From assembly GCA_019096065.1 (NCBI GenBank), contig JAGUCH010000002.1, positions 13,838,501 to 13,902,500 of the forward strand: a stretch of DNA of 64,000 nucleotides, given 5' to 3'. This document shows positions 1,933 to 52,457 of the stretch, piece by piece (the first letter of the stretch is position 1; the number at the start of each line of letters is the position of its first letter). This DNA comes from Paracyclopina nana. Its lineage: Eukaryota; Arthropoda; Copepoda; Cyclopoida; Cyclopettidae. The notes beneath the pieces are model-generated. The model saw only the letters and a program-made list of their open reading frames with translations, ran no database searches and was not told the DNA's origin. The translations under genes and the position numbers were made by a program.

Positions 1933-3156
1933 ATGAGGATTGTCGGGGGCTTTTCGATCTTGCTGTTTTTGCTCCTGCTCCTCGAGATGGAGGAGGCCAG
2001 ACGACCTCATTATTACGGAAGCAGAAGTGGAAGAAGACCGGCTCTCCTCGCCAAGAGGAAAACTTGGGTGAACTTGCGGATGTTGGAGAGAGGCCGCGGC
2101 CCTCGTCAAAGGCTTCCTCGGTTGCTTCCCGGGAAAAAGGCCGGCGATGATGATTGCGGGAAGTTTAATTACGGGAGAAGATGCGGCTCGCTCAATCATA
2201 GTAGCGGCCGCGGTAGCAACCATCGGCAACTGCTCACGCCCAATTTCGGCCCCTATTTCAACGGCATCGCCGACCGCTTCAATCGGGTGCTGACGCGAGT
2301 GCAGTACGGCGTCGAGGCCCCCGAGTGCCCCAAAGTGCCGACGGAGACGACCTTTTACTGCGAGCCCAACGCGGCCAACGCGTGCTGGTCCGTCGGCGTG
2401 GACGACATCGATTGCCCCGACGGCTCGCTGTGTTGCTTCGACGGGTGCAAAAACGTGTGCTACAACCCGGCCCACGTGGAAAAAGAGGCCGAGGCCTGCC
2501 CTGCCGTCCCCTCGGACTCGGGCCAATATTGCGCGAGCTCGCGGCCCAATTGCCGCCAGGCTGGCACTCCCGACTCGGACTGCCCCAATTCCGGCCCGTG
2601 CTGCTTTGACGGCTGCCATAATCGGTGCTTGAGCGATTTCCCACCACCAGCTCCTCCGAGCTTGCCGCCCATTCATTACGAGAGCAATCAGGAGATAGCA
2701 TCGCCCGTAGCCGCGACTGACCATCCAGGTCCGGCCAATGACATTAGCCCGGGAGGTCATCCCACGTTTCAGGCCATCAATCAACGAGAGCCCGCTTTCA
2801 TCTTGCATATTTACGGGCCGCCGCAAACCTTCGCTCGCGTCGCGAGCGCAAATTATGCCAATCTTCCGCGGCAAGAAGCGGACGAAGGCCATGACGCGAA
2901 TCAAAGCCATCAGAGGTCCATCACCGAGCCACGGCAAGGCTGCCCGGACCCGCAACAATGCGTACAGGCCAGCGACGTTGGCCTTTGTCGGACGACAAGG
3001 TCCCAATGTCGATCGCAATTGCACGACTGCTCGTCCTCATCGGATTGTCGTCGCGATGCTCGCTGCTGCTTCGACGGATGCGCCAACGTTTGCGAACGAG
3101 ACTTCGCGGCCAGCGTGCACAGCTCTCTGCACGATTACTTTTATGGCGGAAAATAA
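1933..3156 (+). CDS. Secreted protein with three WAP-type domains
   Basis: The 407-residue frame opens with a signal peptide (leucine-rich core at residues 8-17). It carries three eight-cysteine WAP (four-disulfide core) domains at roughly 131-176, 188-235 and 345-390. Each has the CC-x3-C-x3-C finish, here as CCFDGCxNxC. WAP domains are typically extracellular protease inhibitors or antimicrobial or matrix proteins; which applies here cannot be told. A basic arginine-rich stretch follows the signal peptide and a proline-rich, low-complexity linker separates domains 2 and 3. The gene is more GC-rich than its surroundings and seems uninterrupted, but a hidden intron in the poorly conserved linker (about 2650-2940) cannot be excluded. 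The stop codon lies inside an AATAAA poly(A) signal at 3152-3157. Confidence 0.75.
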   Translation: MRIVGGFSILLFLLLLLEMEEARRPHYYGSRSGRRPALLAKRKTWVNLRMLERGRGPRQRLPRLLPGKKAGDDDCGKFNYGRRCGSLNHSSGRGSNHRQLLTPNFGPYFNGIADRFNRVLTRVQYGVEAPECPKVPTETTFYCEPNAANACWSVGVDDIDCPDGSLCCFDGCKNVCYNPAHVEKEAEACPAVPSDSGQYCASSRPNCRQAGTPDSDCPNSGPCCFDGCHNRCLSDFPPPAPPSLPPIHYESNQEIASPVAATDHPGPANDISPGGHPTFQAINQREPAFILHIYGPPQTFARVASANYANLPRQEADEGHDANQSHQRSITEPRQGCPDPQQCVQASDVGLCRTTRSQCRSQLHDCSSSSDCRRDARCCFDGCANVCERDFAASVHSSLHDYFYGGK

Positions 3157-14138: not shown

Positions 14139-14259
14139 GGCTGCGTCTGCAGAGCCAGCTTACAAATGCAATGAAACTAGCCGTTCTCTATGCAATGATT
14201 CACGGTTAATCTTATCAAATAAGGCACGAAGTCACATTACTCCACTGCTCAAGAACTGC

Positions 14260-17200
14260 AAACCGTGTTCTCTGTTTTGAATCACGGTTGGGCTTGTCAG
14301 GGACTTTTCATTTTTTCCGAGGTCAAGTCAACCGGGGTTTGCTGAGCGATTCGAGGCCAAGAAAAAACTTTGCCTCACCCCCAAGTACCGGACTCCCATA
14401 TTTTTTATCTGTCTTTCCTTTTGGGTGGGATCATTGGGATCATTTGGGATCAAAATGGGAACAAGAATTGCAAACTGTGTTCTCCGCTTTGAATCACGGT
14501 TGGCATTATCAGGGACTTTTCATTTTTTCTGAGGTCAAGTCAACTGGGGTTTGCTGAGCAATTCGCAGCCAAAAAAAACTTTGCCTCACCCCCAAGTACC
14601 GGACTCCCATATTTTTTATCTGTCTTTCCTTTTGGGTGGGATCATTGGGATCATTTGGGATCAAAATGGGAACAAGAACTGCAAACCGTGTTCTCCGCTT
14701 TGAATCACAGTTGGGATTGTAAGGGACTTTTCATTTTTTCCGAGGTCAAGTCAACCGGGGTTTGCTGAGCAATTCGAGGCCAAGAAAAAACTTCGCCTCA
14801 TGCCCAAGAACCGGACTCCCCTATTTTTTATCTGTCTTTCTTTTTGGGTGGGATCATTGGGATCATTTGGGATCAAAATATGTTCAAGAACTGCAAACCG
14901 TGTTCTCCGCTTTGAATCGCGGTTTGGCTTGTCAGGGAAATTTCGTTTTTTCCGAGGTCAAGTGAACCGGGGTTTGCTGAGCCATTTGCGGCCAAAAAAA
15001 TTTGCCTCATGCCAAAGTACCTGACTCAGATATTTTTATCTGTCTTTCTTTTTGGGTGGGATCATTGGGATCATTTGGGATCAAATGTGTACTAGAACTG
15101 CAAACCGTGTTCTCCGCTTTGAATCGCGGTTGGGCTTGTCAGGGAAATTTCGTTTTTACCGAGGTCAAGTCAACCGGGGTTTGCTGAGCAATTCGAGGCC
15201 AAAAAAAAATTTGCCTCATGCCAAAGTACCTGACTCAGATATTTTTTATCTGTCTTTCTTTTTGGGTGGGATCATTGGGATCATTTGGGATCAAATGTGT
15301 ACTAGAACTGCAAACCGTGTTCTCCGCTTTGAATCGCGGTTTGGCTTGTCAGGGAAATTTCGTTTTTCCCAAGGTCAAGTGAACCGGGGTTTGCAGAGCC
15401 ATTTGCGGCCAAAAAAATTTGCCTCATGCCAAAGTACCTGACTCAGATATTTTTATCTGTCTTTCTTTTTGGGTGGGATCATTGGGATCATTTGGGATCA
15501 AATGTGTACTAGAACTGCAAACCGTGTTCTCCGCTTTGAATCGCGGTTGGGCTTGTCAGGGAAATTTCGTTTTTACCGAGGTCAAGTCAACCGGGGTTTG
15601 CTGAGCAATTGGCGGCCAAAAAAAAATTTGCCTCATGCCAAAGTACCTGACTCTGATATTTTTTATCTGTCTTTCTTTTTGGGTGGGATCATTGGGATCA
15701 TTTGGGATCAAAATATGTTCAAGAACTGCAAACCGTGTTCTCCGCTTTGAATCGCGGTTGGGCTTGTCAGGGAAATTTCGTTTTTTCCGAGGTCAAGTGA
15801 ACCGGGGTTTGCTGAGCCATTTGCTGCCAAAAAAATTGCCTCATGCCAAAGTACCTGACTCAGATATTTTTATCTGTCTTTCTTTTTGGGTGGGATCATT
15901 GGGATCATTTGGGATCAAATGTGTACTAGAACTGCAAACCGTGTTCTCCGCTTTGAATCGCGGTTGGGCTTGTCAGGGAAATTTCGTTTTTACCGAGGTC
16001 AAGTGAACCGGGGTTTGCTGAGCAATTGGCGGCCAAAAAAAAATTTGCCTCATGCCAAAGTACCTGACTCAGATATTTTTTATCTGTCTTTCTTTTTGGG
16101 TGGGATCATTGGGATCATTTGGGATCAAATGTGTACTAGAACTGCAAACCGTGTTCTCCGCTTTGAATCGCGGTTTGGCTTGTCAGGGAAATTTCGTTTT
16201 TCCCGAGGTCAAGTGAACCGGTGTTTGCTGAGCCATTTGCGGCCAAAAAAATTTGCCTCATGCCAAAGTACCTGACTCAGATATTTTTATCTGTCTTTCT
16301 TTTTGGGTGGGATCATTGGGATCATTTGGGATCAAAATATGTTCAAGAACTGCAAACCGTGTTCTCCGCTTTGAATCGCGGTTTGGCTTGTCAGGGAAAT
16401 TTCGTTTTTACCGAGGTCAAGTGAACCGGGGTTTGCTGAGCAATTGGCGGCCAAAAAAAAATTGCCTCATGCCAAAGTAACTGACTCAGATATTTTTTAT
16501 CTGTCTTTCTTTTTGGGTGGGATCATTGGGATCATTTGGGATCAAATGTGTACTAGAACTGCAAACCGTGTTCTCCGCTTTGAATCGCGGTTTGGCTTGT
16601 CAGGGAAATTTCGTTTTTACCGAGGTCAAGTGAACCGGGGTTTGCTGAGCAATTGGCGGCCAAAAAAAAATTGCCTCATGCCAAAGTACCTGACTCAGAT
16701 ATTTTTTATCTGTCTTTCTTTTTGGGTGGGATCATTGGGATCATTTGGGATCAAATGTGTACTAGAACTGCAAACCGTGTTCTCCGCTTTGAATCGCGGT
16801 TGGGCTTGTCAGGGAAATTTCGTTTTTACCGAGGTCAAGTGAACCGGGGTTTGCTGAGCAATTGGCGGCCAAAAAAAAATTGCCTCATGCCAAAGTTCCT
16901 GACTCAGATATTTTTATCTGTCTTTCTTTTTGGGTGGGATCATTGGGATCATTTGGGATCAAATGTGTACTAGAACTGCAAACCGTGTTCTCCGCTTTGA
17001 ATCGCGGTTGGGCTTGTCAGGGAAATTTCGTTTTTTTACCGAGGTCAAGTGAACCGGGGTTTGCTGAGCCATTTGCGGCCAAAAAAAAATTTGCCTCATG
17101 CCAAAGTACCTGACTCTGATATTTTTTATCTGTCTTTCTTTTTGGGTGGGATCATTGGGATCATTTGGGATCAAATGTGTACTAGAACTGCAAACCGTGT

Positions 17201-17395
17201 TCTCCGCTTTGAATCGCGGTTTGGCTTGTCAGGGAAATTTCGTTTTTTCCGAGGTCAAGTGAACCGGGGTTTGCTGAGCCATTTGCGGCCAAAAAAATTT
17301 GCCTCATGCCAAAGTACCTGACTCAGATATTTTTATCTGTCTTTCTTTTTGGGTGGGATCATTGGGATCATTTGGGATCAAATGTGCTCAAGAAC
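14260..17395 (+). repeat. Left arm: about 15 tandem units of about 209 bp
   Basis: The landmark GGGTGGGATCATTGGGATC recurs at 14423, 14634, 14846, 15054, 15264, 15471 and on to 17351, 15 times, with spacing of 205-212 bp. Units share GCAAACCGTGTTCTCCGCTT, GAGGTCAAGTGAACCGGGG and a variable A-run. The first three differ most from the rest, as expected for array edges. The near-multiple-of-three period leaves several short open frames that restart at each unit; these are repeat by-products, not genes. Confidence 0.95.
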
Positions 17396-18974
17396 TGCTC
17401 GCGTAACGTGTATTATTGCCAGAGCAAAATTCACCTAGTTTTGACAAGTCTAGTCTCCTAGTGCAAAAAGTAACTGAAACTAGCATATTTTTCGGCAACT
17501 TTTTGAGCTCGGAATGAAACTCGCGTAACATAGCAGTTAAGCAAAAATTGTGCATCGCGCGGTACTTCCTCTTAATTGCTAATAAAAAACGAAATTCTTG
17601 ACCAAGTCAAATTTGAGTCAAAATGTCAATAGCAGGCGATAGTTTGAGTAAACTAGACTCAAAATATGAGACAAAGTCAAACTTTTGACTCATTTTAAAT
17701 TCGCAAGAGAGAAAACTTGCGCATCGCGCGGTACTTCTACTTAATTGCTAATAAGATACAAAATTCTTGACCAAGTCAATTTTAAGTCAAAATGTCAGTT
17801 GCAGTTGATAGTTTGAGTTAACTTAATTCGAAATATGAGGCAAAGTCAAACTTTTGACGAATTTTAAATTCGCCAGAGAGAAAACTTGCGCATCGCGCAG
17901 TACTTCTACTTAATTGCTAATAAGATACAAAATTCTTGACCAAGTCAATTTTAAGTCAAAATGTCAGTTGCAGTTGATAGTTTGAGTTAACTTGACTCAA
18001 AATATGAGGCAAAGTCAAACTTTTGACTCATTTTAAAATCGCCAGAGAGAAAACTTGCGCATCGCGCGGTACTTCTACTTAATTGCTAATAAAACACGAA
18101 ATTCTTGACCAAGTCAATTTTGAGTCAGAATATCAGTTGCAGGCGATAGTTTGAGTCAACTTGACTCAAAATATGAGGCAAAGTCAAACTTTTGACTCAT
18201 TTTAAATTCGCCAGAGAGAAAGCTTGCGCATCGCGCGGTACTTCTATTTAACTGCTAATAAAACACGAAATTCTTGACAAAGTCAATTTTGAGTCAAAAT
18301 ATCAGTTGCAGGCGATAGTTTGAGTCAACTTGACTCAAAATATGAGACAAAGTCAAACTTTTGACTTATTTTGAATTCGCCAGAGAGAAAGCTTGCGCAT
18401 CGCACGGTACTTCTACTTAACTGCTAAAAAAAACACGAAATTCTGGACAAAGTCAATTTTGAGTCAAAATATCAGTTGCAGGCGATAGTTTGAGTCAACT
18501 TGACTCAAAATATGAGACAAAGTCAAACTTTTGACTTATTTTGAATTCGCAAGAGAGAAAGCTTGCGCATCGCACGGTACTTCTACTTAACTGCTAATAA
18601 AACACGAAATTCTTGACAAAGTCAATTTTGAGTCAAAATATTAGTTGCAGGCGATAGTTTGAGTCAACTTGACTCAAAATATGAGACAAAGTCAAACTTT
18701 TGACTCATTTTAAATTCGCAAGAGAGAAAACTTGCGCATCGCGCGGTACTTCTACTTAACTGCATGCTTATGTAGCACAACATAGTAATTTGCTGAAAAT
18801 GCATTTTTGACATGCGCAATTAAGGCCCTGTACACCTGTGATAATATCAACAAAATAACGCGCGATATTATGCTGATATTTGCAAATATCTGGTATTTGT
18901 AAATGATTTTTTTAGATTTTGACAAAAGAATCGGTCTATTGGTACCAAAAGCCATCCTGTCAGGTGCTAAGCAA
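17396..18974. repeat. Core: eight tandem starts of a 169-bp unit
   Basis: The landmark GCATCGCGC(G/A) (GCATCGCAC in two units) occurs at 17552, 17721, 17890, 18059, 18228, 18397, 18567 and 18736, a strikingly regular 169-170 bp. Each unit contains several TTGACT/AGTCAA motifs that can pair with each other. After 18770 a unique stretch of about 200 bp contains short palindromic ATATTTGCAAATAT-like sequence before the right arm starts. The unit is unrelated to the arm unit. Confidence 0.93.
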
Positions 18975-21290
18975 AGTTATTTTGGCTGCGAATTGCTCAG
19001 CAAACCCCAGTTCACTTGACCACGGTAAAAATGAAATTTCCCTGACAAGCCTAACCACGATTCAAAGCGGAGAACACGGTTTGCAGTTCTAGTACACATT
19101 TGATCCCAAATGATCCCAATGATCCCACCCAAAAAGAAAGACAGATAAAAAATATCAGAGTCAGGTACTTTGGCATGAGGCAAATTTTTTTTTGGCCGCC
19201 AATTGCTCAGCAAACCCTGGTTCACTTGACCTCGGTAAAAACGAAATTTCCCTGACAAGCCTAACCGTGATTCAAAGCGGAGAACACGGTTTGCAGTTCT
19301 AGTACACATTTGATCCCAAATGATCCCAATGATCCCACCCAAAAAGAAAGACAGATAAAAAATATCAGAGTCAGGTACTTTGGCATGAGGCAAATTTTTT
19401 TTTGGCCGCCAATTGCTCAGCAAACCCCGGTTGACTTGACCTCGGAAAAAACGAAATTTCCCTGACAAGCCCAACCGCGATTCAAAGCGGAGAACACGGT
19501 TTGCAGTTCTGGTACACATTTGATCCCAAATGATCCCAATGATCCCACCCAAAAAGAAAGACAGATAAAAAATATCAGAGTCAGGTACTTTGGCATGAGG
19601 CAAATTTTTTTTTGGCCGCCAATTGCTCAGCAAACCCCGGTTCACTTGACCTCGGTAAAAACGAAATTTCCCTGACAAGCCAAACCGCGATTCAAAGCGG
19701 AGAACACGGTTTGCAGTTCTAGTACACATTTGATCCCAAATGATCCCAATGATCCCACCCAAAAAGAAAGACAGATAAAAAATATCAGAGCCAGGTACTT
19801 TGGCATGAGGCAAATTTTTTTTGGCCGCCAATTGCTCAGCAAGACCTGGTTCACTTGACCTCGGTAAAAACGAAATTTCCCTGACAAGCCTAACCGTGAT
19901 TCAAAGCGGAGAACACGGTTTGCAGTTCTAGTACACATTTGATCCCAAATGATCCCAATGATCCCACCCCAAAAGAAAGACAGATAAAAAATATCTGAGT
20001 CAGGTACTTTGGCATGAGGCAAATTTTTTTGGCCGCAAATGGCTCAGCAAACCCCGGTTCACTTGACCTCGGGAAAAACGAAATTTCCCTGACAAGCCAA
20101 ACCGCGATTCAAAGCGGAGAACACGGTTTGCAGTTCTAGTACACATTTGATCCCAAATGATCCCAATGATCCCACCCAAAAAGAAAGACAGATAAAAAAT
20201 ATCAGAGTCAGGTACTTTGGCATGATGCAAATTTTTTTTTGGCCGCCAATTGCTCAGCAAACCCCGGTTCACTTGACCTCGGTAAAAACGAAATTTCCCT
20301 GACAAGCCAAACCGCGATTCAAAGCGGAGAACACGGTTTGCAGTTCTAGTACACATTTGATCCCAAATGATCCCAATGATCCCACCCAAAAAGAAAGACA
20401 GATAAAAATATCTGAGTCAGGTACTTTGGCATGAGGCAAATTTTTTTGGCTGCAAATGGCTCAGCAAACCCCGGTTCACTTGACCTCGGGAAAAACGAAA
20501 TTTCCCTGACAAGCCAAACCGCGATTCAAAGCGGAGAACACGGTTTGCAGTTCTAGTACACATTTGATCCCAAATGATCCCAATGATCCCACCCAAAAAG
20601 AAAGACAGATAAAAATATCTGAGTCAGGTACTTTGGCATGAGGCAAATTTTTTTGGCCGCAAATGGCTCAGCAAACCCCGGTTCACTTGACCTCGGGAAA
20701 AACGAAATTTCCCTGACAAGCCAAACCGCAATTCAAAGCGGAGAACACGGTTTGCAGTTCTAGTACACATTTGATCCCAAATGATCCCAATGATCCCACC
20801 CAAAAAGAAAGACAGATAAAAAATATCAGAGTCAGGTACTTTGGCATGAGGCAAATTTTTTTTTGGCCGCCAATTGCTCAGCAAACCCCGGTTGACTTGA
20901 CCTCGGTAAAAACGAAATTTCTCTGACAAGCCCAACCGCGATTCAAAGCAGAGAACACAGTTTGCAGTTCTAGTACACATTTGATCCCAAATGATCCCAA
21001 TGATCCCACCCAAAAAGAAAGACAGATAAAAAATATCAGAGTCAGGTACTTTGGCATGAGGCAAATTTTTTTTTGGCCGCCAATTGCTCAGCAAACCCCG
21101 GTTCACTTGACCTCGGTAAAAACGAAATTTCCCTGACAAGCCCAACCGCGATTCAAAGCGGAGAACATGGTTTGCAGTTCTAGTCCACCCAATCCCACCC
21201 AAAAAGATAGACAGATAAAAAATATCAGAGTTAAGTACTCAGGCAAATTTGTTTGGCCGTTAATCGCTCAGCTAACCTCAGTTCACTTGA
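18975..21290 (-). repeat. Right arm: about 11 inverted tandem units of about 209 bp
   Basis: The reverse complement of the left-arm unit repeats here; GATCCCAAATGATCCCAATGATC recurs about every 210 bp from about 19100 to 20990, with a degraded last copy near 21186. A 284-codon open frame (19831-18977) arises because these units keep a length divisible by three. Its protein would be a 70-residue repeat with no known domain and is best read as a by-product. Confidence 0.93.
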
Positions 21291-44520: not shown

Positions 44521-46430
44521 CTATACTATAATGTCTCTACCTAAAAAAATAACCAAGGAGTCTGTGATACCAAATAAAATACTTGCAGCTTATAGTTCTT
44601 GAGAAGGAACTCATTAAGAGTCCCGTATGGCAAAGTATGCCCAGCTTAATTGACCATAAATGAACCCTCATTGTTTTTGTGACTGGCCTGAACAACATGG
44701 CCCAAGGCGTTTCCCTCAGGAAGCCACGACGAATTTTGATCTTTTGCACCCCGCTGTGCGCCATGTGACCTTCACATCTCGATAAAACCAACGGAAATGT
44801 CAACGCATGTGTGCATCTCTGACCGGACCAATCTATCCCATTTGAGCTCAAATACAGCAGCACTGCGATGACATCATATGTAAATTGGGAGCTACACGAC
44901 TCTTTTCATGCCTATCAGGCTTGCCAACAACCGAGTTATCATGGCTGACCTTCAAGTAGCTCAGTTGAGCTATCAAGCTGTACAGTAAAAAACCTCAACT
45001 TCAACAAGGAACAAAAAAGAAATAGAATATTCCACATGACGTGCAACCTGGCTGTGCTATGTTAAAGTAGTCGCACTTTATGCTCCTCGCGTGGGAAATG
45101 AATGGATTAATTTATTAATGTATCAAAATGGGCCTGACGCCACACCGAAAATGGAGGCAATTCATACAGAAAATTAATCGAGTGGAAATTTCTGCAATTC
45201 GACATATCATGTACGGCAAAAGGGTTCATTCAATTTTCGATGATATCCTGTTCAGGAAGAACAAGATAAACTGGAATGAACCCTCACTACAACAACATTC
45301 ATTTACAAAAAGTGTATTTATGCAAGCACTATTTTATGCTTACATATACAGTGTATAGGATATTTCCACAGAGCCTTAATAAATAAAGTAGTCAAAAAAT
45401 TACTTAAACTTTCAATAAGTAAAAATGGCCGGCACAATTTTAATAGAATTCGGCAATCTTTTCTATGACACTACTGGTCAAAGTTATTTTAGCTGCCTAT
45501 AGGACATCACACAGGGACATTTACGCAACTAAGTGCGCATCTTTTTGCTGAAATTCCAAACAGTTTTGAAAAAAAGATAAAAAAGCTAATTCTAAGTGTT
45601 GGTTTAAAGGGTAGTAAAAGCAGACATCCAATGTATAATATGCAATATTATGCTAAACAATTCAATTGCAGCTGCGAATGGCAAAAGCAATTCAGCAACA
45701 ACCACAACTGTTTTACCTAGATCTTACCAACCCTTATTTAACTTTAACTTTAAACTTAACTTATTTAACATGAGCTAAAAGAAAATCAGCATGTGCTAAA
45801 TGCTAGACAGCCTACATAAACTCTTCTTTGGTACAACCAGGCTTACAAGAACTAGTGAAATGGTCCAATGCAAAGAATCTTAGATTAAGTCTCTGATCTG
45901 TACTAGCCAATAAGTAAGACCAGGCATTGATTCCAGAAATGGGCTAAAACTAATTTTCAGTGGCTAAAAAAAGTCACTTTAAAAGAACATTTACTTGGTG
46001 CGCTGAAGGGCTTTTGGGAAAAAACACAAATATCCTAACAAGGCTTCGAATTTATGAAAATTCAGGCAGAAATAAGAAATAATTATTTGAACAGAGGGGC
46101 TTTGGTATAAAAAAGTTCACCGATGCATTGCACAATGAAAAAATATGCATGCTACTTTTTTTTTCAATATATCCTAATGAAAACCCGAATGGGTAGATGA
46201 TTACTGAAATATTTTGATAAAAAAGAAGGACCTCTAGTTTGTATATGGTATATGCTTGGATCCTTGCTATGTTTAATCAAAGAACGGTAAATATGAAAAA
46301 ATTGCGCGCGCGCATATTCCGAGTTGTCCAAGTACTGCACGGCGCCATGTAGCCCTAAACCTAACAGGACAAGATGCTTTTACCACCAAAATCTAAACAG
46401 TAATTTTCGAGTAGTGCACTAGTTAACATC
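44521..46430. other. Intergenic, no supported gene
   Basis: About 1.9 kb of AT-rich DNA between two plus-strand genes. It has a short run of TTAACTTTAACTT-type repeats near 45737-45770 and a GCGCGCGC run near 46304. Open frames (such as 45128-45358) have no recognisable domain. The distal part should be the promoter of the channel gene. Confidence 0.5.
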
Positions 46431-49400
46431 ATGGATTTGGGCCAAGCTGTCATCACAAGAACCTTAATCGGGAACACAGATGCTGAAAAGGTGTTCACAC
46501 CTTGGTGGATCACATTACATCATTACTTGGTTTACTTTTTGGTCATTCTGGGTAAGAAACATGCATTTTTTGGAATTCCGGCAATGTGCAAGTGGATTTG
46601 TCTTCCTCTTAGGGCTGATTGCAGTTCCTATGAATTGCATGATGGGTGCTCATGGAGGATGCTCATATGATCTAAGTTCCCACAAAAACTATTTATTACC
46701 CCACACCATTTGTAGATATGACAATGCAAGCAATTTAATTTATGTTGAAAACAAGAATTTGAAAAGATTCACCAAAGAGACGTGAGTATTGGTTGTATTG
46801 AAAAAATTAAAACATGCAAAATCAGCTAATTTTCTTACTTAGGTTAGCTTACAATTTTACCCGGGTGAAGAGCTACTCCATATATTCATCATTCAAAGTA
46901 AAATATCCAAAAACAATTATTTCAGAACGATACACTTATTGGAGGCTTACCATATAGGTATCCCAGAAGTTCATGTCTAGCTTAGCTTTGTATGAAAAAG
47001 CTTACTTTGACAAGTTACCCTTGAACTACAATGGATGCTTGGTTAAGCCTCATCCCAATTTGTTTGGATTCCATGTGTATTGGGCATGCGTGAACAAACT
47101 GGGCACCATTGCTCTCTACTTCCCATATTTGGTGCTGACACTGGCTCTCATTCTGGTGCTCCTTGAAAGAATCCTCACTAGGTACATGTGGACTGGCCAG
47201 AGAATTGAAAAGTTTTATGATTTGCTGGTGAAGGATGTCATAGCGTCTGGGGACATTGACAAAGTGGACACCAAGGAAAATAGGCAGAAATGCAGACAAA
47301 TCCATTATGACTTCAAGGGCTCTTGGTTCTGCTGCAAAGCTTACATCAGCCAGACTGCGGTGAAATTGGTCATTTGCTTGAGTGTTTTGGTCTGGAGCTT
47401 GTTCGACCAGTGCAATGAGCTGAGAGAAAGCTTCAACACTGTGAGGCATTGCCAAGTGTTTGACTATGCCCATGTCTGTGACATCCCATCCAATGCCATG
47501 AACATGGTCATTTTTGACATGGTCAATTTTGTCCTATTCATCATTTTTGTGGTGGCAGCTTTCAACTTGAACTGGCACCTGCGGTTCAAGACCATCAAAC
47601 AGTATCCGGTGTTGAAGAGGAGTAGCAGCCACAAATCTGCAACAAGCAAGTGTGGCCTTTTAAAAAGCAAATTAATTGACCTCTTTGACAGGTACAGGTC
47701 ATGGAGGTCCACTAAGTTGAGTAGGATGGTAGATGCTTACCTTGACAATTTGGCCATCAGGAGTTATCATGGCGACCTGACAGCACTCAACGAGGAGGAC
47801 AAACTTCTGTACGAAGTGTACACCTTGTCTCCGGACATGCAAATGCTGCTGAACTTGCTCACTGAGAAGGAGGGCATTTGGTCAGCCATTCTGATATTGA
47901 GTCTGTTTGACAAGTCTTTCAAGAATGAGTTCAAAGTCAGAGACTCACAAATCACTTCTCATCCAAATGCATTCAGCTCAAGGAGAAGGGATGTGACCAT
48001 AGCTTGGAATGAGCCAAAAGCAGCTCTTTTTCTGGGCCAAAATGTGCCGACTGAACATTTGATGTATGTCATTGAAATAGACCCTCCCGTTGATCAAAGA
48101 GATGAGGATGGAGTAACAATGATGCCAGCTTGCACAGTAAGAAAAAATCTGTTATCTTAAGGAAAGATGCAAATTAAAACCACTTGTTTTTAAGGCTGAC
48201 GGAGGCTGCATTTTCAGTCCAATAAGGAAGGAATCCAAGATTGACATGTCAGGCAATCCAGTCATGTAATGAATTGTCAATTATAGTGAAGCATTAATTT
48301 TATAGTGACTTTTTAAAGGGACCCGAAAGTGGCAAGCTTTTCGCGACAAACTTCATTGACAAGCGTTATTAGCAGTAGCAGTGGTGACAAAGGTATGACA
48401 ATCATTGATGGCGGACTACCCGATGAAGTGCTCGATGCCAAAAAGAAGTTTAGCAGCAGAACCAGAATCTCATCAGTCAACCCTCACATGAGTCTGCGAA
48501 GAAAAACTGCCATTTTGCTGGGCAGAAAAAAGTCAGCAGAGAAAATCAGGAACTTCAAGTAATTTACTTTAACTGCTATTCTAGCAGAAACATGCTAATC
48601 AACTCTTTCAAGGACAACCATGACTGGTTTGAGGATCGACACAGAATATGTCATCACAATGAGTTTTGTCCTCTCAGGTAGAAAGTTAGGCTCAGAGAGC
48701 TACAGAATTTTGTGCAATGAGAATGGGAGGAAGTCAAGCACCGATTCATCTCCATCTACTGATGTGACACCCAAGTCTTCAATAACTACCATGAGCCCCA
48801 AACCTAGCCTTCCTTCGACATTATCAAACCAAGGGCTGATGAAGCAAGTCATCGCTAGACTGGACTCATTGGGCGGGCAAAATGAGCAAATTCTTGTGGC
48901 CAAATCCTCAGAAGAAGTCAAGGTGTTATTGCAATCAAAATCAACTGACAAGATGGTCAACCATAAGAGGCTTGTCATCCTTGAATTCATGACCAATAGC
49001 TGTGGCTTATGCTCTAAAATAGCCCCCCAAGTTGAGGTGATATTTCTCCTCAAAATAAGTAAGAATCACTATTGAGCTTACTCAATTTCTAGGAAATTGC
49101 TGAGCATTATGGAGGGAAAACTGTCACTTCTAGCTCTGGGGAGAGGAAACAGGCCATCTTTATCAAAGCTGATGTTGAGGAATGCTCTGAAATAGCAGAA
49201 ACTTTCGGCATAGAAGTGCTTCCTTCCTTCCTTGTGATAGAGCAAATCAGAAAACCCTCCAGTGATTCGGGAAAATATTACTTTGACGGCGTGATCAAAT
49301 CAACACACATTGGTCAAGTCGTGAGCAAACTTTGGGAGGAGATCCAAAACTGGCTTAACTCAATTCCGTCTGGTGACGAAGGTGAAGCTCAAGCAATGCC

Positions 49401-49434
49401 CGATTTATTTCCAACGCAAGAGAGGCAAAGATAG
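46431..49434 (+). CDS. LRRC8-like channel fused to Fn3-like region and thioredoxin domain
   Basis: Exons 46431-46551, 46613-46781, 46843-46897, 46958-48136, 48195-48265, 48319-48558, 48613-49036 and 49093-49434 join in frame to 866 residues. The N-terminal half has four membrane segments (about 30-50, 166-185, 249-267, 298-320) with extracellular cysteines. Like LRRC8 (VRAC) proteins it has a PWW motif before TM1 (24-26) and, after TM4, the helical LIDLFDRYRSWRSTKLSRMV region. Instead of leucine-rich repeats it continues with an Fn3-like region (VTIAWNEP near 460 and TGLRIDTEYVITMSF near 616, split by a serine-rich insert). A thioredoxin domain with intact CGLC (742-745) and cis-proline (VLPSF, 797) follows. 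It is likely a large-pore or anion channel with a cytosolic redox domain. Confidence 0.75.
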
Positions 49435-50069
49435 GGATTGCAATGTACCAAAAAATGTACAGGTTAAATAAAGCAACGAATCAATTGGTCTTTATAGAGA
49501 AAAAGTTGTTTCCTACCTTGATTCACTACTTGGAGAAATGTTGATCGACTGATGCGGATGGTAACGTGGACATATCAAGCTCAACAGGATTCACTTGAGA
49601 TTTGAGAAATCCACAGTTGATGTCACATCAAACTAAGCTCATTGCTGAGCATGACTGAGTAGGAAGAGTAGCATATCAGCGATCAGAAATAGATGAGATA
49701 TGCGGTATCAACCGGTCCACGATACTCAGCATACAACTCGAACTGACTACTGAGCTAATGCTAATCGTCTCAGCAGTTACTTCGAGACTTTCGTAACAAC
49801 CATCACGCAACCTTTTTTCGCTTTCAGGACACCAGAAATCTTTGTTTGCTTAGACAGAAGAGGTAAACAGACTTTCGCGGAAAAATATTGCTACGCAATT
49901 CAGTTTCGCTGTTGCACCACTAGCGTTTACTTCTCGCGAAACCGCGGCTCGTCAAAAAAATTGGTTATCTCGAACATCAACAATCAAATTAAAGTACGCG
50001 ACAGCTGACGTTGAAGACACTGCAGTCTGCAACAACGTCGTTACAACGGCTTCATATTACTTGGCCATC
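49435..50069. promoter_or_regulatory. Intergenic, upstream of Rabaptin
   Basis: 635 bp between two plus-strand genes, the second half somewhat GC-richer. An AATAAA soon after 49434 (near 49466) can end the channel gene. The rest presumably holds the Rabaptin promoter and 5' UTR; no motif was assigned. Confidence 0.5.
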
Positions 50070-52457
50070 ATGGAGGCCACCGAGGACCCTGCGGAGTGCC
50101 AATTGTTGAGGCAAGAAATCGAGGAGCTCAAGGCGAAAAATACAAGCTTACAGCATAACCTCGATGACGCTCTGAGCGAGGTTGCAGTGGCTGGTTGCGT
50201 CAGAGAGGATCTCATGGAGTTGGAGCGTCAACGTACCAGCCTGGAGGCGGAGAAAACCACCTTAGAGAGCCTCCTAATAGAGGCTCAAAATGAGGCGACC
50301 TCAACTCGTACTCGCTACGAGCATGAAAATGCTCGGGTCCGAGCAGTGCTTGACCAGCTGGAAACAGAGAACAGAGAGCTCAAGGCGAGGCTTGTGTCTG
50401 ACAACCTCGTGCCTGATGGTAGTGCCAACCTCGAGACGTTAAGTGTTCTCACGGATGCAACCAAGTCATTGGCAAGACGTGTCCGAAGTAATTTGTTGTC
50501 GTCCAATAGTGGCGGTGGCTCGGTCTCCTTCAGCAAGCAAAACCGGTCAGACAATGACTCGGACACATCACCGACACACGACCCGACCGGAATGCAAAAA
50601 GCTTACGAAGACTCAGAATTGATGAAAGCCATCATCGTGCCATTGGAGGAGCAAATTGTGGCCCTCAAAGACAAGCTCCGAGAGACTGACACAATGCTAC
50701 GGGAATTTGAAAAGCACCAATCTGATGTGCTCTTTTCCGCCGAAGTCCTTGGAAAGTGGTTGGTAGGTAAGAAGTCTTTCTCAGAAGCGATGGAAGAACT
50801 CGAGAAGAAAAGTCAGGAGAGCTCTGTTGCGTTTTCGGCCTTGCTCAACGCTCGATTGGGGCTTGTTATCAAAGAGCTATCGGAATTGCGGTTAATGAAC
50901 GACCGCAATGCTACGGACTTGGATAGAACATTGAAAAAGAGTGCCGATCTAAGATCACAAGCAGCAGAGGCTAACGGGAGGTTATTGAGGAGTCAGCAAA
51001 AGCACGCGGCTGAATTAGCCCGAGTGGCATCGGTGTTGTCAGAGGAGCAAAAATTGGCCCTGTCTGCGTCTTTTCAAAAGCAAAACAGCCTCGACAAGGG
51101 CAACAACCAGGAAGAGAAAATGTTGTCAGATGAGATTGTGATCTGCAAGTCTGAGTGGGAGGCCCTGCAAGACGAGCTGAACAAGACCAAGGCACTCATG
51201 GGCATTGGGCTTGATGTCGATGTCGTTGGGTCTGACCAGTTTAGGCAATTGCAATCCCAGCTACACGAGCTGCAGGCCAAGTCTGAAAAGAATTTGGCAA
51301 GGGAAGAAAAGCTCAAGTCTGATCTCCAGGTTATGGAGCAACAGTGGAATGAGCGCGCCGAAGAGCATCAAAGTCAAACAGCAGAGTTGACGGCACAAGT
51401 TCGTGAATCCAAGGAGCTTTTGAGTGCATTGCAGCGATCCTACAAGTCGTCTTTTGACGAGTCACGCGCTCATTTGCACAAGTTAACGCAAGACCGAGAC
51501 CGCATAGTCAGCGAGCTAAGGAGGCTTCAGGTGATCTCAAATTTCACATTCCTAGACTTGAACATTGTTGATTTTGTAAGCGTATATAATGACAAGCATA
51601 ATTTGGATTTTTAGGTGGAAAATGACGAGCTTCTCGGCAAACACCATGCCAAAGCTGAAGAGTTGCAAAGTGAGGTAATCAACTTGCCTGAGAAGACCGA
51701 GGATATGCACCTATTGTTGCTGACACTTAGAGAACAGCTCATTTCAGCCAAATTGGCTGCCGAGCATCATGAAGACTCGCGTAAGCAGAGCAAAGCGGAG
51801 CTGACAGGCGAAATCGATAGGCTGAAGGAGCGCCTATTGATCCTTGAAAGTTGCAAAACAGAGATGGAGGCCGTTCAAAAGCGCTCCAAGGATGTTGAAG
51901 CCATGGTCAAGTCCTTGATGAATGAAAAGACCGGTCTTGAAAAAGAATTGGAGAGTGCTCAAATGCACAGGTCCAAGTTGGAGCATCAGGTGGCCGAGAT
52001 GAAGGCCAGGATTACGAATTTGCAGCAAGAGCTCGACAATTCTGTGGCTGTGCAGACAGATTTTGTGCGGTTATCTCAGTCTTTGCAAGTAGAATTGGAG
52101 AAAATTCGTCAGTCTGAAACCGAGGTAATTCACACAATTTGGATGATAAATGCTAGGTTTTTTGAAGGGCTTCAATGATGACAGTTAATTAATGGTGTTG
52201 TTTTTTTAATGCTGTTGCAGGTACGCTGGCAACACGAGGATGACGTGGATGATTGTTCCAGTTGCCATCACCAATTCAGCGTGTCCAAGAGAAAACATCA
52301 TTGTCGTCACTGTGGCCGCATTTTCTGTGCCGACTGCCTTACCAAAACTGTGACAAGTGGGCCCAGCATGAGGCCAGCCAAAGTGTGCGAAGTTTGCCAT
52401 ACGTTGTTGGCCAAGAACTCTGCTCCTTACTTTTCCACAGTGGTTCCTAGTCTTTGA
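50070..52457 (+). CDS. RABEP1: Rabaptin-5-type Rab effector with C-terminal FYVE domain
   Basis: Exons 50070-51530, 51615-52124 and 52221-52457 join in frame to 735 residues. Most is coiled coil. The segment AIIVPLEEQIVALKDKL and the end region VQTDFVRLSQSLQVELEKIR match Rabaptin-5, where the latter belongs to the Rab5-binding part. A FYVE finger follows directly (WQHEDDVDDC, RKHHCRHCG, FCADC, VCEVC) with the basic RKHHCR PI3P-binding motif intact. Vertebrate Rabaptin-5 lacks FYVE; arthropod-type homologues carry it. The protein should tether Rab5- and PI3P-positive early endosomes. The GFOD gene starts 105 bp downstream behind a splice-acceptor-like tract, suggesting a two-gene operon. Confidence 0.88.

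Follow-up and report, generated by a model that had tools for sequence, protein, structure and literature searches.

A putative LRRC8-like channel module joined in frame to a thioredoxin domain in the copepod Paracyclopina nana

Does a single gene of the copepod Paracyclopina nana join the membrane half of an LRRC8-like channel to a thioredoxin, and what would a thioredoxin do at the place where LRRC8 proteins carry their leucine-rich repeats (LRRs)? The locus lies at positions 46431 to 49434, on the plus strand, of the window that we analysed, a stretch of 64,000 nucleotides. LRRC8A to LRRC8E are the subunits of the volume-regulated anion channel; how the cytosolic domains bring about the opening of LRRC8 channels, and why some of these channels react to oxidants, is still under discussion. 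A naturally occurring relative with a redox protein at the place of the LRRs would be a ready-made test of channel control. The protein also bears on the origin of LRRC8, which a review (PMC9399500) gives as postulated to lie in the pannexins at the base of the chordates, with LRRC8-like genes also present in Nematostella; an LRR-less form would agree with a pore module to which separate lineages have added cytosolic domains of different kinds.

An earlier note, made from the letters of the sequence, had described a gene of eight exons read in frame, and the splice model agrees with it: eight exons on the plus strand between 46431 and 49434 join into 866 residues without an internal stop, and the seven introns are all GT-AG, fall between 53 and 61 nt and form a single size class. 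Upstream, a stop codon limits the N-terminus: the open frame that contains the start codon begins at 46404. Exon 1 (46431..46551) encodes the N-terminus and the start of the first membrane segment (TM1), exon 2 (46613..46781) the remainder of TM1 with some of the first extracellular loop, and exon 3 (46843..46897) more of that loop. The long exon 4 (46958..48136, residues 116-508) holds TM2, TM3, TM4, the post-TM4 region and the start of a region resembling a fibronectin type III (Fn3) domain, within which exons 5 (48195..48265) and 6 (48319..48558) form a linker. Exon 7 (48613..49036) encodes the second half of the Fn3-like region, a Ser/Pro/Thr linker and the first half of the thioredoxin domain, which is interrupted by intron 7 (49037-49092) and completed in exon 8 (49093..49434) together with the C-terminal tail and the stop codon. 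A polyadenylation-like AATAAA at 49467..49472 (plus strand) starts 33 nt past the stop.

We scored codon usage with a table trained on eight long open reading frames of the window. In exons 4, 5, 6, 7 and 8 the annotated frame outscored the other forward frames, in exon 7 very narrowly (0.098 against 0.094 for a competing frame with 12 stops). For exons 1, 2 and 3, which are small (18-55 codons), its rank was best, worst and second best, respectively, and a reverse frame containing stops outscored it in exon 1 and in exon 3. Codon usage of exons 1 to 3 is not informative.

In a gene model of this kind the joint between the two halves, here between exons 4 and 7, is the most vulnerable part. 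We fixed these two exons and permitted any chain of introns of 50-65 nt between them, using rules (a GTRA donor, an AG acceptor and an upstream pyrimidine count) that were chosen after the model had been seen. In the real sequence the best in-frame chain comprised 549 coding bases of 714, which is the region minus the three modelled introns (58, 53 and 54 nt); exons 5 and 6 have the support of this link test in addition to the splice model. None of 500 dinucleotide shuffles of 48137-48612 permitted any in-frame chain. Because the rules were set with the model in view, this result speaks for the rarity of such an open link and not for the use of each splice site. That two neighbouring genes were merged by the gene model, or were brought together at an assembly joint, would suit exons 5 and 6, which match no Pfam family. 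Against it stand the 0/500 shuffles, the single size class of the seven introns, and the sharing of exon 7 by the second half of the Fn3-like region and the thioredoxin domain. A motif scan adds that there is no AATAAA from exon 4 to the stop codon and that the sole ATTAAA there is located in intron 4. We regard a merger as very improbable. These results support a single in-frame gene that joins the channel half to the thioredoxin half, and in life the gene would presumably be read as one transcript.

Intron 4 (48137-48194) has a further property. Its retention would close the open frame at 48160, shortly behind the channel and the first Fn3-like part, which makes a thioredoxin-free isoform possible as judged from the reading frame.

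In the channel half, the earlier note had pointed to a PWW motif and four membrane segments, and both are in place. PWW occupies residues 24-26 (46500-46508, in exon 1), a shift of two positions towards the C-terminus relative to residues 22-24 of LRRC8A, C and D. A hydropathy scan gave four hydrophobic peaks, at residues 33-51, 166-184, 245-263 and 299-317, and a fifth row that overlaps the third segment. On the DNA, TM2 lies at 47108..47164, TM3 at 47345..47401 and TM4 at 47507..47563, all on the plus strand; TM2, identified by its match to LRRC8 as well as by hydropathy, carries the LRRC8-type stretch YFPYLVL, with YFPYL at 47117-47131. The whole protein has two N-glycosylation-type sites (78 and 101), both in would-be extracellular loops, as are seven of the 13 cysteines that residues 1-440 contain (57, 74, 142, 159, 267, 280 and 289). 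From the four membrane segments and the loop placing of these sites and cysteines, we infer that the C-terminal thioredoxin would face the cytosol.

How close is this half to LRRC8? Residues 1-440 matched PF12534 (Pannexin_like, the LRRC8 membrane region) with an E-value of 5.5e-5 and 22.8 bits, which is under the gathering score of 25; the whole protein scored 20.6 bits against the same model. PF12534 was the only Pfam family listed for residues 1-440, in a search whose HMMER filters drop most hits above E 0.1, and the innexin/pannexin family PF00876 was absent among the matches listed there at E up to 10. A phmmer search of residues 1-440 against the PDB was not significant: its LRRC8C match had E 0.33 and ranked below an unrelated protein at 0.19. 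As references we used LRRC8A, C and D, the sequences of which were checked against PDB entries. A profile comparison with these three gave a probability of 43.8 percent and an E-value of 2.4e-4, over TM2 only. The LRRC8A/C/D profile scored residues 1-440 at 15.9 bits, a value reached by 0/1000 window shuffles, and scored the reversed residues at 2.8 bits. Identity to LRRC8 over the whole channel half is 15-18 percent. An AlphaFold model of exon 4 alone had a mean pLDDT of 43, too low to bear out the helices that the earlier note had described after TM4.

We then compared the half piece by piece, by global alignment with 200 shuffles per piece and by HMMER with window and full shuffles. The N-terminus with TM1 scored z 3.4 against LRRC8A/C/D (0/200 shuffles as good; in HMMER, 3/500 window shuffles and 0/500 full shuffles reached the score), and TM2 with the following helix scored z 7.3 (0/200; in HMMER, 0/1000). 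The piece from TM3 through the second extracellular loop to TM4 was borderline, with z 1.95 and 9/200 shuffles as good, and 2 and 4 of 500 shuffles reached its HMMER score. In the whole-half HMMER run TM3 was placed on the TM4 of the profile, a placement that we take as spurious. The post-TM4 linker gave z -0.25 (123/200 as good) and a shorter post-TM4 piece z -1.32 (183/200), and by HMMER neither the post-TM4 region nor the first extracellular loop scored better than shuffles. MAFFT had placed residues 408-435 on the LRRC8 linker; this was rejected since the piecewise test did not support it. An LRRC8-type linker after TM4 was thus not recognisable by piecewise alignment to LRRC8A/C/D. Pannexin-1, cut into the same pieces, gave z 0.04, 2.5 (4/200), 0.4 and -0.99. 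The LRRC8 z exceeds that of pannexin-1 in all four pieces, in a comparison that sets a three-sequence profile against a single sequence and so gives LRRC8 the advantage.

These comparisons divide the earlier claim of an LRRC8-like channel half. The LRRC8-like character of the N-terminus with PWW and TM1, and of TM2, is well supported by alignment, whereas the LRRC8 kinship of TM3-TM4 is compatible with the scores but unproven, and the linker went undetected. The Pfam match and the piecewise LRRC8 scores go some way to answering the concern that the N-terminal half might be an unrelated membrane protein. Could the membrane half instead represent a branch of its own within the innexin/pannexin/LRRC8 superfamily, one not yet described? 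The unassignable TM3-TM4 and linker and the identity of only 15-18 percent would agree with such a branch, but the N-terminus with TM1 and TM2 favour LRRC8 by z, albeit with a three-sequence profile against one pannexin-1, and the LRRC8 model is the sole Pfam listing for this half after filtering that removes most hits with E over 0.1. We consider a separate branch somewhat unlikely; it concerns kinship only and would be compatible with a redox mechanism.

The earlier note had also pointed out that LRRC8 proteins carry LRRs where this protein has its Fn3-like region and thioredoxin fold. No LRR family is found among the seven Pfam matches listed for the whole protein at E up to 10. Because no LRR family is listed and the Pfam cut-off is missed, we file the protein, on the strength of these sequence comparisons, as an LRRC8-like channel module with a thioredoxin where LRRC8 has its LRRs, and not as a member of LRRC8.

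Between the two halves the earlier note had seen an Fn3-like region, of which one part held up better than the other. Fn3 was not found by the Pfam or PDB searches. With a home-made profile built from five Fn3 domains, the second half (residues ~612-631) scored 9.9 bits, with 0/1000 shuffles reaching the score, but the first half was weak and out of the expected register, with 5/500 window shuffles and 4/500 full shuffles reaching its score. The whole stretch 441-655 scored 9.7 bits against the same profile (0/1000 shuffles). The region is possibly an Fn3 domain split by an insert of ~100 residues. It is followed, at residues about 650-690, by the long, flexible-looking Ser/Pro/Thr linker that precedes the thioredoxin.

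The thioredoxin half is the more readily recognised. Pfam places a thioredoxin domain (PF00085) at residues 718-813 (48929..49272, plus strand, intron 7 included), with an E-value of 7.4e-12 and 45.6 bits against a cut-off of 23.5, in agreement with the thioredoxin fold proposed earlier. The top PDB entry for this half is PDIA4, with two domains (E 3e-10), and the top single-domain match is the thioredoxin 5g2z (E 1.4e-9); 5g2z and 3zzx are shrimp thioredoxins. The CxxC and cis-proline, which the earlier note had reported as intact, are indeed kept. From the sequence and the PDB alignment, the active-site motif CGLC occupies residues 742-745 (49001..49012, plus strand, in exon 7), and the cis-proline Pro797 (49222-49224, plus strand, in exon 8) aligns with the proline of MPT in the PDB thioredoxin. 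Cys784 (49183-49185, plus strand, in exon 8) aligns with the Cys of VDEC in 5g2z, and Glu736 is an acid at the buried-acid position, as in PDI. The thioredoxin consensus is WCGPC, with Trp ahead of CGPC. Here the site reads SCGLC, so that Ser precedes CGLC and Leu stands at the Pro of CGPC, and the WCGPC feature has no match. The redox pair is kept with Ser and Leu as neighbours, so its surroundings are unlike those of a housekeeping thioredoxin, and because of these two residues the putative disulfide reductase activity of the domain is uncertain.

The same two replacements, Trp to Ser and Pro to Leu, and the long Ser/Pro/Thr linker ahead of the domain are what one might expect if the thioredoxin were a docking or assembly scaffold at the place of the LRRs, binding partners or neighbouring subunits with no redox chemistry. 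Yet both cysteines, the cis-Pro and the acid Glu736 are kept, which would be unusual for a pure scaffold, and we judge the scaffold unlikely. A complete thioredoxin domain on a long, flexible-looking linker might also be a membrane-anchored disulfide reductase or sensor for other cytosolic proteins, in which case the four-TM part would be mainly an anchor, or a channel that the thioredoxin does not control. Here the LRRC8 features that are kept, namely the N-terminus, the first two membrane segments and the helix directly after TM2, argue for a kept pore, and we think an anchored enzyme of this kind decidedly unlikely.

The reading that we tentatively put first is an LRRC8-like channel regulated by its own redox thioredoxin; as an explanation of the predicted protein it falls, in our estimate, somewhat short of an even chance. 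The gene would encode one subunit of a large-pore channel of LRRC8-like (pannexin-like) type, with a thioredoxin in place of LRRs as its cytosolic regulatory domain. The pore would be ringed by several such subunits, and their thioredoxins would lie beneath it on the cytosolic side. The disulfide of CGLC could form and break, or be passed to cytosolic cysteines of the same channel, for which residues 227, 240, 241, 347, 507, 513 and 646 are candidates, and the packing of the cytosolic domains would change, so that the pore opens or closes. The thioredoxin might be a sensor whose disulfide state the pore tracks, or it might locally reduce the cytosolic cysteines of the channel itself. We infer the oligomer, the pore, the topology and the gating, and by analogy with LRRC8E redox control of the pore is plausible. 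Taken as a whole, the idea of a thioredoxin channel-enzyme, namely an animal-lineage LRRC8-like channel with a catalytically live thioredoxin whose cytosolic thiol state sets the pore, is possible, and we hold it with considerable doubt.

What has been reported for LRRC8 bears on this mechanism. According to a review (PMC11177392), a C424-C448 disulfide in the cytosolic LRRs of LRRC8E activates LRRC8A/E, oxidation inhibits LRRC8 A/C and A/D, and the oxidant responses seem to vary with cell type or conditions. Sybodies against the LRR domain are described, in PMC8440666, as raising or lowering the activity of LRRC8A. Among the literature matches listed, seen as titles and abstract openings, there was no LRRC8-like channel with a thioredoxin.

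We also looked for relatives of the fusion and at the surroundings of the gene. IMG/VR contained none: one scan gave 0 pattern matches and another 32, none of them confirmed. In GTDB genomes two scans gave 22 and 38 pattern matches, again with none confirmed. These are viral and prokaryotic collections, so nothing about rarity is to be inferred from them. Among the neighbouring open reading frames are some with ChaC, RMC1, LIM, Rpb3/RpoA insert, SET7/SET, helicase C-terminal with HA2, SAGA-Tad1, pseudouridine synthase and GDT1 domains, all ordinary eukaryotic genes. For the open reading frame at 1966-3153 we saw a WAP-type match (Pfam E 9.5e-5) and an N-terminus of secretion-like character; this WAP domain, an FHL-type LIM domain and the other neighbours together indicate an animal, in keeping with the copepod source. 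Downstream of the fusion gene the next open frame on the plus strand, a coiled-coil-like one, lies at 50070-51611, its ATG ~635 bases past the stop codon. Apparently the same 209-bp satellite occurs in opposite orientations at 14252-17398 and 18980-21188, with within-array matches of 94-96 percent, and a 169-bp array of a different unit (17543-18763) lies between the two, giving a large inverted arrangement at 14252-21188. Scans for Rfam families and for tRNAs found nothing in the window.

Compared with LRRC8A, C and D, the protein has YFPYL in TM2 and four membrane segments in common, a PWW displaced by two residues, a similar first helix after TM2 (IEKFYDLLVK against LEHFVSILLK) and a Cys before TM2 that aligns with C113 of LRRC8A. 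It differs in that no LRR family is listed, the linker is unrecognisable, TM3-TM4 is borderline and the C-terminus is a thioredoxin. With pannexins and innexins it has four membrane segments and extracellular-loop cysteines in common, and the TM2 motifs, FFPY against YFPY, are close; PF00876, however, is unlisted here, pannexin-1 has the lower z in all four pieces, and we know of no pannexin or innexin with a thioredoxin. The domain itself resembles a cytosolic animal thioredoxin (5g2z, 3zzx) in its CxxC, its cis-Pro and the Cys of the VDEC stretch, but has SCGLC for WCGPC, an extra loop of 12 residues and a tether to a membrane protein. Enzymes are known as parts of other channels: TRPM2 carries NUDT9-H, TRPM7 carries a kinase, and Kv channels have a reductase-type beta subunit. 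The protein described here might work alike, with an enzyme-derived domain, in this case a thioredoxin, as the cytosolic regulator, a likeness of design for which we claim no homology.
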